The notes beneath the pieces were generated by a model. The model was not told the origin of the DNA, searched no databases, and saw only the letters and a list, made by a program, of their open reading frames with translations. A DNA stretch of 48,968 nucleotides from Oscillospiraceae bacterium (GTDB lineage: Bacteria; Bacillota; Clostridia; Oscillospirales; Oscillospiraceae): NCBI GenBank assembly GCA_009787995.1, contig WQSH01000005.1:1-48968 (forward strand). The letters run 5' to 3'. Numbering within the stretch: position 1 is the stretch's first letter; every line of letters begins with the position of its first letter. Shown one piece after another: positions 7,320-10,159 of this stretch. Made by a program: the position numbers and the translations under genes.

Positions 7320-7382
7320 TAGGGCACTACTCTGTTGTGCATAACTTTAGTTAAGTGACCACAACCATAGAACCGTGTAAAA

Positions 7383-7509
7383 TCGAAAAGGCAAACTCGT
7401 CGAAAGGCGGGGACGCAAAGCTAGGGGTCTAAGGCTCTTGCGGTGAGAAATGCATTGAGCAATGTTCGCCGCAGGGATTGCTATGATAGCCCGGCCGCCG
7501 AAATTTCGA
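7383..7509 (+). ncRNA. Cyclic di-GMP-I (GEMM-I) riboswitch
   Basis: The core matches the GEMM-I aptamer: GGCAAAC (7390-7396), a GAAA-capped short helix (7401-7404), GGGGACGCAAAGC (7409-7421), then a GGTCTAAGG-type tetraloop-receptor segment, an extended P3 arm (about 7436-7474) and the closing GCCCGGCCGCC-like segment. TCGAAA (7383-7388) can pair with TTTCGA (7504-7509) as P1. The aptamer senses the second messenger c-di-GMP and here precedes an intrinsic terminator and the gene at 7627. Confidence 0.9.
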
Positions 7510-7555: not shown

Positions 7556-7626
7556 CGGCACAGATCTGCTGCGATTGACACGTTAAAGTAGCAATCTAAT
7601 TATTAAGTTAAGATGAGGTGGAAGCA

Positions 7627-8118
7627 ATGAGAGTGTTAGTAGTTCAAAACAATCTGACTTTCAATCGCGGGGATTTGAGGGACGTACTTACCAGGTTCTG
7701 CGGCATTAACTCGACCGGTGTGTTTGCCGCAAAAGATGGCGAGGATGCTCTGCGCAAGCATGCTGAACTTAAACCAATGCTCGTTTTCTTGGACATTTCC
7801 TTACCAAGCAAGAATGCGCTTGCTACGGCTCGGGCGTTGAGAAAAGAAAACCCCTCTGTGCGCACCATCATGTGCACTGCATCAAAGCAGGATCCGGACG
7901 TCTTAAAGTGCATAAAATTTGGAACTGTGGATTTTGTATTGACGCCGCCGACACCAAAAAACGTAAGGCTGGCTGTCAAAGAGGTGGAGTCTGATTTATA
8001 CTCGGAATGGTTTTTCGAGCGAAGTGCGACGCGCATAATAGAGTCGTCAGCCCAAGAGGGGGACGCTGACTCAGCCGGTGATGAGTTTTATGCAGCAGCG
8101 CCAGCGCTCCTGTGGTAA
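7627..8118 (+). CDS. Degenerate receiver-domain protein under c-di-GMP riboswitch control
   Basis: A 163-residue single-domain protein resembling CheY-type receivers. The phospho-acceptor position is kept (LVFLDISLP, Asp56), as is the switch Thr84 (IMCTASK). However, the Mg-binding acidic pair at the end of strand 1 is Gln-Asn (VVQNN, residues 7-8) and the invariant Lys before Pro is Thr (VLTPP, residue 106). Normal phosphorylation is therefore doubtful. A tail of about 35 acidic, Ser/Ala-rich residues has no output domain. The start is ATG 7627, 5 bases after AGGTGG; a GTG at 7618 lies inside the ribosome site. No histidine kinase is nearby. Confidence 0.8.
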   Translation: MRVLVVQNNLTFNRGDLRDVLTRFCGINSTGVFAAKDGEDALRKHAELKPMLVFLDISLPSKNALATARALRKENPSVRTIMCTASKQDPDVLKCIKFGTVDFVLTPPTPKNVRLAVKEVESDLYSEWFFERSATRIIESSAQEGDADSAGDEFYAAAPALLW

Positions 8119-8202: not shown

Positions 8203-8494
8203 CCTGTGTGCGGGTGCTCAAGCTGTCTTTTCAGTGCCTTGCATTTTTGATTCCGCGCTTCTATCAAAAGTGACATTTCATCCACAGGCGCAATCCCAAG
8301 TTTCCATCTTTTTTGCGCCACAGCTATGAGCAAAATTTCCCGCTATTATCCGCCTGTCCGCAAGCGCATTTTGTTTTAGTGCCAAACACCCAAAAGCCTT
8401 TTTTCGCCTCAACATAATTGTCGCAGCTCGGGCATTGGATAACAATTTTACCCATAAATCTATCCTTGATTGATTCCTTATTTAGTACATCCAT
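8199..8494 (-). pseudogene. Frameshifted small zinc-ribbon protein gene
   Basis: From ATG 8494 (AAGGAGC site at 8503-8509) a 56-residue frame reads MDVLNKESIKDRF, then a CPSC knuckle (residues 21-24), VEAKKGFWVFG and a CACG knuckle, and stops at TAG 8324-8326. In another frame immediately downstream a protein-like tail, WKLGIAPVDEMSLLIEARNQ and a basic helix, runs to a stop at 8199, exactly beside the bidirectional terminator. One indel near 8310-8335 would join the two. An A6 run there could also be a sequencing slip, or the short form may be the real product. Confidence 0.5.
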
Positions 8495-8635
8495 AGCAGA
8501 TTGCTCCTTAAAAAATTAATCGTGCCTTTGATGAGCGTATTTATGTGAAATTATTCACCAACCGTCCCTCCTTTTCTACATTTTTACCACATTTCCCCTA
8601 TGAATTTTAGCGCAAAATGGTGAAGTAAATGTGTA

Positions 8636-8664
8636 ATGACAAGCCTGGTTATCCCTGATACAAT
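8636..8664 (+). promoter_or_regulatory. Promoter of the type I toxin mRNA
   Basis: ATGACA (8636-8641), 17-base spacer, TACAAT (8659-8664). The predicted start near 8671 places the 5' repeat at the first bases of the mRNA. Confidence 0.65.
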
Positions 8665-8721
8665 AGGCACCGGAACTGCCGTGCGGCGGCTCGGTCACAT
8701 CCTCATGAGAGGAGTGATGCT

Positions 8722-8826
8722 ATGGTTACATATGAAGCAATGTTTACATTCTCTATGGTAATCATCGCGGTTATCGCTCTCTGCTGGAAGATTTTCAAGG
8801 ACATCTTCAACAACAGGGATAAATAA
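8722..8826 (+). CDS. Small hydrophobic holin-like toxin of a type I toxin-antitoxin locus
   Basis: A 34-residue peptide. It begins MVTYEAMFTFSMVIIAVIAL, a short hydrophilic head followed by one membrane helix (about residues 8-24), and ends in a charged tail KDIFNNRDK. Composition and the Tyr-Glu-Ala start match the putative holin-like toxin family of Firmicutes (TxpA/Fst-like in style). An AGAGGAG site (8708-8714) lies 7 bases upstream. It has its own promoter, a terminator 3 bases after the stop, and a convergent promoter on the other strand. The expected action is membrane insertion and depolarisation when the antitoxin RNA is lost; this is inferred from the family. Confidence 0.75.
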   Translation: MVTYEAMFTFSMVIIAVIALCWKIFKDIFNNRDK

Positions 8827-8829
8827 TTC

Positions 8830-8856
8830 GAGACGCCTTAGCAACTAAGGCGTCTC
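8830..8856. terminator. Bidirectional hairpin shared by toxin and antitoxin RNAs
   Basis: GAGACGCCTTA (8830-8840) and TAAGGCGTCTC (8846-8856), a perfect 11-bp stem with a 5-base loop. It directly follows the toxin stop codon and is the overlap point of the two convergent transcripts. T tracts are weak on both sides. Confidence 0.7.
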
Positions 8857-8908
8857 TAAACCAACTTATGGACTGAGCCGCCCTACGAAAAGCGGCAGTT
8901 CCATTTCT
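8830..8908 (-). ncRNA. Predicted convergent antitoxin RNA
   Basis: A minus-strand promoter (8915-8943) would start a transcript near 8908 that runs into the shared hairpin, giving an RNA of about 80 nt. Its 5' end carries the same repeat as the toxin mRNA leader (8893-8902 and 8871-8882 versus 8672-8681 and 8685-8696). Direct complementarity to the toxin mRNA is limited to the terminator overlap. No peptide with a ribosome site is seen in it. Confidence 0.6.
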
Positions 8909-8914
8909 ACGCCT

Positions 8915-8943
8915 AATCTACCACATACGGAACCTGTCGTCAA
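8915..8943 (-). promoter_or_regulatory. Promoter of the antitoxin RNA
   Basis: On the minus strand TTGACG (8938-8943), 17-base spacer, TAGATT (8915-8920), pointing at the toxin gene. Confidence 0.65.
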
Positions 8944-8980
8944 GTGCCGCAAGAGCGAGGTATTGCAGCGGTGGCGTCGC

Positions 8981-9832
8981 TTATTCTAAAAAGCTGACGG
9001 CAACGGCAACTTCCACTATACCCTTTCCAGTATCAATGGCTACCCTTTCGTCTGACGGCAGCACAGACCTCTTTGAAACGACAGGCGGCTTAATATCACA
9101 GAAAACGCCGCTAGAGGCTGTAATCTGGCGGCATACCAATCCTCCAATGATATTTGAGACTTCAAAGGTTGCCGACATCTCCAGCTCACCAATAGTTTCC
9201 GGCATGTAGTTTAGCGTGTCGGAAATTATGCTTTTGACAAGAGATACGGGGTATGTAATATTGGTATACCCAATTGCACCGTCGGTAAACTCTATCTTGA
9301 CGGAAACGGAGTCTTCAAAATCCTCGCTATAATCGGCTACAACATTCATGGAAGATGCCTTAAGCCCCGCCATTTTTTCAAGCACATCACCTACGCTAAA
9401 AAGCACCATATCTTTGTACTTTACGTATTTTCGTCCGCGCTCTCTCGAAGTTAGCACATATCTCCGGTCTGCATCTGAAACGTGATAAAGCAGCCATGCA
9501 CCCAGCACTCCCACAAATACCATTACATCGCTCTTTGCGAAATCGGAATCCTTCATTATTTTTGTGTGTTGTGTAACTGTTTGTATAAAGCGTTCATGCA
9601 GCTTTTTGTGTGTGGCTAACTCCGGATATTTTATGGAATTCAGATATGCTTCTTCGTCTGCAAAATGCGAAATAGTGTAATCCTTTAGAAAGATAATAAC
9701 TGAAATACATTTTTGTTTATCCACAACACCGCCGGAACGTACTTCCTTTATAAGCTCTCCAATCTTTTCAAACAATTTTTTATGCTGATTGTCAATTTTT
9801 TCTACGCCTATACGTAAGGACTCTTTCCACAT
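8981..9832 (-). CDS. Bacteriohemerythrin-CheX fusion protein
   Basis: A 283-residue protein of two parts. Residues 1-130 are a bacteriohemerythrin with the di-iron ligand pattern QHKKLF, HFADEE, HKKLHERF and YHVSDADRRY, which binds O2 at a non-haem di-iron site. The second half (about 145-283) resembles CheX/CheC, including the FEVSNIIGGLVC helix region; that family dephosphorylates CheY-P. The combination suggests oxygen-modulated control of chemotaxis, which is inference. An in-frame TTG at 9838 is better spaced from the AGAGGG site, but ATG 9832 starts the usual MW...IGV motif. It has its own promoter. Confidence 0.82.
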   Translation of the reverse strand: MWKESLRIGVEKIDNQHKKLFEKIGELIKEVRSGGVVDKQKCISVIIFLKDYTISHFADEEAYLNSIKYPELATHKKLHERFIQTVTQHTKIMKDSDFAKSDVMVFVGVLGAWLLYHVSDADRRYVLTSRERGRKYVKYKDMVLFSVGDVLEKMAGLKASSMNVVADYSEDFEDSVSVKIEFTDGAIGYTNITYPVSLVKSIISDTLNYMPETIGELEMSATFEVSNIIGGLVCRQITASSGVFCDIKPPVVSKRSVLPSDERVAIDTGKGIVEVAVAVSFLE

Positions 9833-10159
9833 AACCAACCTACACCCTCTCTAAAAAAAGAACTTCCCCACCACACCCCTATATCCGGGTGCGGCTGATG
9901 GAAAACGCTTATCTGTTAATCATAACTCATATTTTTCTTTTGTCAAGTTCTGGCTGAATTGAATGGTTTAGCATGATTGACCGTATATCCCTGAGTTTCA
10001 ACCACATATTATTAGTATAGGTCAACTTGCCGTCACTGGCGAGCTGACCTGTATTTTAATGATAGGAGTTTATGTATAATGGAGCAAATGGTAATTCAGA
10101 TTAATAATCCGCCCCAATGACAAGAAGTCCTGTAACCATTGCGGTTACAGGATTTTCTT
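9833..10159. other. Intergenic region with two hairpins and a possible small RNA or peptide
   Basis: Besides the hemerythrin promoter there is an imperfect hairpin at 10019-10050 (AGGTCA arm with TGACCT arm, inner GCC/GGC stem). A strong hairpin, CCTGTAACC (10129-10137) with GGTTACAGG (10143-10151), is followed by ATTTTCTTT on the plus strand. Between them AGGAG (10062-10066) precedes two very short frames: one of 10 codons from the nearer ATG and one of 13 starting MEQMVIQINNPPQ. This looks like a small plus-strand transcription unit, but no good promoter was found. Confidence 0.35.
9919..9946 (-). promoter_or_regulatory. Promoter of the hemerythrin-CheX gene
   Basis: On the minus strand TTGACA (9941-9946), 16-base spacer, TATGAT (9919-9924). 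The leader of about 80 bases holds a G/C-rich hairpin, CCGCACCC pairing with GGGTGTGG. Confidence 0.65.

Follow-up and report, generated by a model that had tools for sequence, protein, structure and literature searches.

Why should the two predicted transcripts of a small toxin-antitoxin locus, read from opposite strands, begin with nearly the same sequence? The question is raised by a locus in contig WQSH01000005.1 of an Oscillospiraceae bacterium (Bacillota). We refer to the whole stretch of DNA that was analysed, 48,968 nucleotides, as the window. A sequence-only reading of the window had described a type I toxin-antitoxin locus with mirrored leaders, and had proposed that the mirror symmetry may reflect a different mode of antitoxin recognition. 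The features discussed below are collected in table 1.

Table 1. Predicted features of the locus and of its surroundings, in coordinates of the window.
Feature	Position	Strand	Remarks
c-di-GMP-I-GGC riboswitch	7381-7503	+	upstream of response-regulator ORF 7618-8118
56-aa ORF on the other side of the module	8324-8494	-	family search: none found
Predicted toxin promoter	8636-8664	+	-35 ATGACA (8636-8641), 17-nt spacer, -10 TACAAT (8659-8664); 10/12
Predicted toxin mRNA	about 8672 to about 8905	+	predicted ends
Outer arm TL, GGAACTGCCG	8672-8681	+	predicted 5' end of toxin mRNA; pairs with 8893-8902
Inner arm TR, GGCGGCTCGGTC	8685-8696	+	pairs with 8871-8882
Stem-loop with Shine-Dalgarno GAGGAG	8697-8715	+	folding; consensus helix
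Toxin ORF, 34 aa, PF16935 Hol_Tox	8722-8826	+	ATG 8722 to stop 8826; profile match
Predicted antitoxin RNA, ~80-87 nt	8908 to about 8822	-	antisense throughout to toxin 3' UTR and stop codon; predicted ends
Hairpin H1 (GAGACGCCTTAG/CTAAGGCGTCTC), predicted antitoxin terminator on the - strand	8830-8856	both	12 pairs, loop 3; terminator-like on - strand; compensatory changes
Hairpin H2 (GGACTGAGCCGCC - 9 nt - GCGGCAGTTCC)	8870-8902	both	+: 3' strands of closing helix, predicted toxin terminator; -: antitoxin 5' hairpin
T-rich tail, predicted toxin terminator (ATTTCTAC)	8903-8910	+	weak in window, stronger in most relatives
Predicted antitoxin promoter	8943-8915	-	-35 TTGACG (8943-8938), 17-nt spacer, -10 TAGATT (8920-8915); 9/12
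Hemerythrin-domain ORF	8981-9838	-	directly downstream of the module

The toxin family, the relatives and the two promoters

The hydrophobic peptide of 34 residues and its plus-strand promoter are present as described. In a Pfam profile search the peptide passes the gathering cut-off of Hol_Tox (PF16935; 29.3 bits versus 23.3) and has no match to the Fst family. Among the relatives of the locus some fall below this cut-off (e.g. 15.9 bits at L010), and L017 scores 23.6 bits. The assembly to which the window belongs has one Hol_Tox match and one copy of the locus, and a tblastn search of phage and plasmid records with the window peptide gave no match. The convergent promoter on the minus strand is also where it was claimed to be, with its 17-base spacer. 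The kilobase that holds both promoters contains eight promoter-like sites for 1.9 expected, so the two are not alone.

We searched for relatives of the locus at the DNA level in 60 genomes, including its own, and found matches in 14, some of which cover only part of it. Whole or partial, the locus occurs in 12 of the 18 other genomes of the genus and in one of 18 from other genera of the family, and in none of the 23 genomes from other families of the order; the maximum per genome is eight matches (G027). A search of named genomes with a pattern of the antitoxin hairpin returned 72 stretches, in which true loci are mixed with chance hits in unrelated GC-rich genomes. The true loci come mainly from metagenome-assembled genomes titled Oscillospiraceae bacterium, with isolate codes (Emb289, Th196, Lab288, Nt197) that we take to stand for termite guts, and one is borne by a viral contig (L111). 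Filtering gave 49 rows, four of which we judged to be chance hits (L045, L066, L072 and L092); most other stretches failed the filter or repeated earlier loci. This left 45 units, 33 of them with a toxin leader and 32 complete. L018, L134 and L136 are not separate rows among the 32 (L136 is the same locus as L061), and L029 and L031 are cut by contig ends. The patterns used to find the loci held both arms of the 3' hairpin together with the inner arm of the leader, hence part of the pairing among these follows from the selection; the outer arm, TL, had no place in the patterns.

The second promoter is a constant feature of these relatives. A minus-strand promoter of 9/12 or better occurs in 44 of the 45 units, with p ≤ 0.05 against shuffles in 40, and in the units that have it the -10 box lies 9-16 nt before the hairpin, a near-constant distance. 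A scan that allowed too short a distance to the hairpin had retrieved 19 of 45 at this score; the count of 44 comes from the widened scan, for which the shuffles were widened alike. Thirty-one relatives extend far enough upstream to be scored at the position of the toxin promoter, and 25 of them have 9/12 or better. The mean promoter score is 10.7/12 for the antitoxin and 9.6 for the toxin, the latter in a scan made under other spacing rules, and the minus-strand promoter of the window is weaker than that of most relatives. Family membership, the two promoters and the conservation of the whole unit all argue for the type I assignment, i.e. a small hydrophobic peptide with an overlapping antisense RNA gene, as far as sequence and promoter conservation can establish it.

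Some units are incomplete or clustered. Twelve of the 45 have no recognisable toxin leader (L014, L015, L019, L020, L021 (1649), L022, L036, L037, L039, L046, L067 and L099), 11 of which keep a minus-strand promoter of 9/12 or better, and in several, such as L015 and L037, the toxin is reduced to its C-terminal codons. Such units may be modules in decay, or antitoxins retained because they silence sister toxins. Several modules occur together in each of the genomes G027, G001, G012 and G010, and L027 has three within about 1.1 kb (480-1572), in both orientations. In such multi-module genomes, antitoxins whose 5' hairpins are nearly identical might engage in cross-talk. As for the neighbourhood, Rfam at gathering score retrieves only two tRNAs and the c-di-GMP riboswitch in the whole window; near modules of relatives there is a cobalamin riboswitch (L017, 1226-1427, minus strand) and a 6S RNA (L061, 829-1023, minus strand).

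RNA ends, mirrored leaders and a probable closing helix

The hairpin that follows the stop codon, H1, had been taken for a terminator shared by both transcripts. The hairpin is there, with 12 pairs, but a shared role looks doubtful. Across the 32 complete loci, the eight positions after H1 hold on average 2.41 T on the plus side, against 4.19 on the minus side, and at least five T in two and 11 loci, respectively. Judged on predicted ends, the tail is thus T-rich on the minus side only, and H1 is not convincing as a shared terminator. H2 appears to be the better candidate for the toxin: its plus-strand tail in the relatives has 4.96 T in eight, compared with 2.84 in shuffles, and at least five T in 30 of the 45 units, although that of the window is weak (4 T in 8) and is not listed by the terminator scan. 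From the promoter positions and the T-rich tails of H1 and H2 we infer a toxin mRNA and an antitoxin RNA nested in its 3' end, with the extents given in table 1.

The mirrored leaders of the two predicted transcripts are present: GGAACTGCCG...GGCGGCTCGGTC spans 8672-8696 on the plus strand, and GGAACTGCCG...GGCGGCTCAGTC starts from 8902 on the minus strand. With their short and interrupted arms they escape a repeat search at default length. The toxin leader pairs with both arms of the plus-strand GGACTGAGCCGCC - loop - GCGGCAGTTCC. In the window, the best ungapped complementarity between the leader and the region after the stop codon is equalled by one of 200 dinucleotide shuffles, and a score that allows several collinear helices by none of 100. 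We used these shuffle-tested measures instead of whole-length duplex energies between leader and 3' region, which are too permissive. When 8672-8908 is folded, it forms a closed molecule of -102.3 kcal/mol (z -9.45), and none of 200 shuffles is as good. It is thus highly probable, from sequence and folding models, that the mirrored leaders are the two strands of a helix that joins the 5' end of the toxin mRNA with its own 3' end. The leader repeat would then be inverted because the toxin mRNA closes on itself, and the antitoxin would carry a leader-like sequence since the strand opposite to its 5' hairpin is the one that pairs with the leader in cis.

This structure is preserved in the relatives. 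The mirrored arms are kept in all 32 complete loci, where three of the four arms were contained in the finding patterns; loci lacking the inverted repeat, which would have spoken against the sequence-only reading, were not seen among them. In the alignment, 98.1% of cells are paired in the outer helix and 96.6% in the inner one. The whole structure is paired in 94.8%, compared with 91.1% in column shuffles, none of the 500 reaching it; when the structure is slid, the share is 47.4% at most. RNAalifold, unprompted, places 21 of its 33 consensus pairs in the closing helix. On a tree built from the ORF and H1 only, the columns TL5 and AL5 change seven and six times, six of them on the same branches for 0.68 expected. 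Pairs of H1 show coupled changes similar to these, with compensatory changes, whereas TL8-TR5, a pair of the local leader hairpin, has none among its eight and seven changes. The tree-coupled changes are strong at one helix pair only, those at TL8 (p 0.077) and TL3 (p 0.064) being suggestive, and the inner-helix pairs have none except at TR11. TR5/AR5 is mispaired in nine of the 32 loci. When the outer helix is taken by itself, two of the five covariation measures stay within the range of shuffles (218 and 482 of 500).

Folding of the individual loci agrees with the alignment. All 32 minimum free energy folds have at least 15 closing-helix pairs, and the predicted energy gain over the two parts folded apart averages 17.8 kcal/mol (range 9.5-25.1). 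The 3' end of the same locus is better than the average foreign one in 29 of 32 loci and ranks top in only three. The first ~25 nt of the plus transcript can pair with its last ~33 nt and so close the molecule, a predicted pairing that is conserved with coupled changes. The Shine-Dalgarno (SD) sequence lies in a conserved predicted stem-loop of its own that adjoins the closing helix. The second promoter, the convergent one, is conserved as well. Over the 32 loci the SD has a mean unpaired probability of 0.04, and of 0.03 once the 3' end is removed; its accessibility stays the same, so that the folding predicts no direct gating of the SD by the closing helix. The start codon behaves alike (0.17 with the 3' end versus 0.18 without). 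The change is predicted for the first eight nucleotides of the mRNA, with a mean unpaired probability of 0.06 in the closed form compared with 0.48 without the 3' end.

Comparable complementarity extends beyond the close relatives. PF16935 matches were found in 19 of 295 genomes of the order (E 1e-3) and in 43 of 398 of the phylum (E 1e-4), the genome of the window being included in both counts, and also in the control genomes of B. subtilis and L. lactis. In 34 of 48 Hol_Tox loci the complementarity between the leader and the region after the stop is equalled by at most five of 100 shuffles (15 of 18 in the order, 16 of 27 in the phylum, and three of three others, the window and two phage loci). 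The remaining 14 fail to beat 95 of 100 shuffles; for some of them the assignment of start or stop is doubtful, and some scores may include pairing between the leader and the stop-codon region. Complementary leaders made of other sequences occur at L126, L128, L113, L147 and L160, for example; L139, L141 and L167, for which the stretches taken were misplaced or cut short, were left out of this comparison. A minus-strand promoter of 10/12 or better follows the stop codon in 19 of 21 loci of the order, 51-128 nt away, and in 14 of 27 of the phylum, where shuffles score nearly as well. In this wider scan the best match in the window (9/12) is a different site from 8943-8915. These results suggest that a 5'-3' closing helix, probed so far, to our knowledge, in bsrG and bsrE of B. 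subtilis, is widespread in Hol_Tox mRNAs of the phylum. As a separate observation, L139 has regularly spaced copies of TTTTTAGCCTACCTACGAGGAATTGAAAC at a locus with a Hol_Tox match, which look like a CRISPR array; passages of PMC6563280 report type I modules of C. difficile near CRISPR arrays.

A working model and its alternatives

We consider it very likely, on comparative sequence and folding evidence, that the locus is a chromosomal Hol_Tox (BsrE/BsrG-like) module of type I, present in one copy and compact in form, in which a helix closes the ends of the mRNA. Its function would be an ordinary one, in a layout that is well supported and slightly unusual. The toxin mRNA would be made up to H2, and the closing helix and the SD stem-loop would stabilise it and hold back its translation. 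The minus-strand promoter, the stronger of the two, would deliver an antisense RNA of ~80-87 nt, which would pair with the toxin 3' UTR, probably from the loop of H1 on, and then invade the 3' strand of the closing helix. Cleavage of the duplex by RNase III and decay would follow. If the supply of antitoxin failed, the toxin mRNA would survive and the small membrane peptide would be made. The end-to-end lock may serve stability, control of the SD, or as the target of mimicry by the antitoxin.

In the compact form of the window, one hairpin of ~33 nt seems to combine three roles, as a strand of the helix, as terminator of the toxin mRNA and as 5' hairpin of the antitoxin. A tentative extension, which we hold to be possible and not the likelier case, makes functional use of this triple role: the antitoxin, which would start with a copy of the first nucleotides of the mRNA, would mimic this 5' end and displace it from the helix, freeing it for 5' attack, as the predicted exposure of the first eight nucleotides (0.48 unpaired without the 3' end) would allow. 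If true, the antitoxin would destabilise its target by opening the end-to-end lock of the mRNA, besides plain cleavage of the duplex.

Could the closed mRNA instead be activated as in hok or aapA, the full-length molecule being inert and translated after losing its 3' end? Comparable long-distance 5'-3' pairing is described for hok and aapA/IsoA in passages of PMC6733600. Yet the predicted accessibility of both SD and start codon is alike with and without the 3' end, and the B. subtilis relatives are presented in parts of a review (PMC6562991) as sequestering the ribosome site instead of relying on processing. We regard such activation as unlikely.

The two leaders might also be independent 5' hairpins without any 5'-3' pairing, alike for another reason such as a common protein or RNase site or a start preference of the promoters. 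Both hairpins can form, the antitoxin/terminator hairpin being kept in 98.4% of cells, and there is some covariation in one register of the toxin leader hairpin, equalled on three measures by 18-31 of 500 shuffles. In the other register there is none (232 of 500 shuffles), and TL8-TR5 is broken in eight of 32 loci, while TL8 and its 3' partner are broken in one. Moreover, the arms co-vary within a single genome (e.g. L095 versus L071, L077, L085 and L109, all Lab288P1bin3), which would be needless for a shared protein, and divergent Hol_Tox loci keep the complementarity with other sequences. These observations make independent hairpins quite improbable.

Still less credit can be given to the recognition mode first proposed, in which the two RNAs meet through 5' leaders that are similar and in part self-complementary. 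A hairpin can form in each leader, with arms able to pair with those of the other, and TL8-AR5 is a standard pair in 31 of 32 loci. However, when the leaders of the window were folded against each other, the predicted gain was only 3.1 kcal/mol, compared with 24.5 for the leader and its own 3' end and 85.7 for the antitoxin and the toxin 3' UTR. Over the 32 loci the leader-leader gain averages 2.5 versus 23.7 kcal/mol for the pairing in cis, which is the stronger in every locus, and the antitoxin has full antisense complementarity elsewhere. By the predicted energies, the antitoxin would thus appear to recognise the toxin 3' UTR through antisense pairing of the ordinary kind. Finally, a small MITE-like mobile element with the leaders as terminal inverted repeats would account for the inverted ends, the multiple copies in relatives (up to eight matches, G027) and the span of most matches from about 8672 to about 8906, but it is the least credible reading, given promoters that lie outside the repeat on both sides and whose conservation is one of function and spacing, not of individual letters, a single copy in the genome of the window, and coupled changes that preserve RNA pairing.

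Comparison with known systems

Among the matches listed in searches of openly licensed PMC papers, a corpus that leaves subscription journals mostly uncovered, none describes this module in Oscillospiraceae. In the par/Fst system of pAD1 there are likewise convergent toxin and antisense RNAs, two promoters and a hairpin between them. Its direct repeats, DRa and DRb, at both 5' ends give complementary RNAs and its terminator is bidirectional (passages of PMC8167048), whereas the repeats of the window are inverted and its toxin has no Fst match in Pfam. The txpA/RatA pair resembles the window in its convergent antisense RNA at the toxin 3' end and in a txpA SD held in a 5-bp stem (sections of PMC7430163), and differs in its 59-aa toxin and 222-nt antitoxin. 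In hok/Sok and aapA/IsoA, with other toxins, the 5'-3' pairing masks the SD until 3' processing (as passages of PMC6733600 put it), whereas the SD of the window is predicted to sit in a local stem regardless of the 3' end.

The closest characterised kin are bsrG/SR4 and bsrE/SR5. By its sequence the locus is a Hol_Tox member that would work like them, outside RF01412 as this family is defined. Both systems have, as is predicted for the window, a small hydrophobic toxin, a convergent antitoxin over the toxin 3' end, an SD in a stem and an outermost 5'-3' helix; their structures are reported to have been probed, with SDs in stems of 4-5 bp, and the duplex to be cut by RNase III (sections of PMC7430163 and PMC6562991). 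SR4 is described in parts of PMC7430163 as pairing with the 3' part of helix P1 of bsrG and then with the terminator loop. SR4 and SR5 measure 180 and 163 nt, whereas the antitoxin of the window would be wholly nested and of ~80-87 nt.

The Rfam BsrG model (RF01412) scores 17 bits in the window for a cut-off of 55 (E 0.06), chance families scoring alike in the same search, and matches none of 11 related loci. An SPbeta-type phage locus, retrieved when a related toxin served as tblastn query, scores 55.4 bits for Hol_Tox and 212.6 for BsrG. The model has an outermost helix between the 5' end and the 3' region of the toxin mRNA, a second helix from the leader to the stop-codon region, and a separate terminator hairpin at the end, 3' of the outermost helix. 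The window has the first and lacks the other two: H1 folds on itself, and the 3' strand of the outer helix itself forms H2, the predicted terminator hairpin, followed by the tail and then by the minus-strand promoter. This compact layout, missed by the Rfam model at its cut-off, offers a way to find similar modules that lack annotation. Specialists will see in it a useful addition to known systems rather than a surprise, and it gives the puzzling geometry of inverted, not direct, leader repeats an explanation in a mechanism that can be tested with compensatory mutations.
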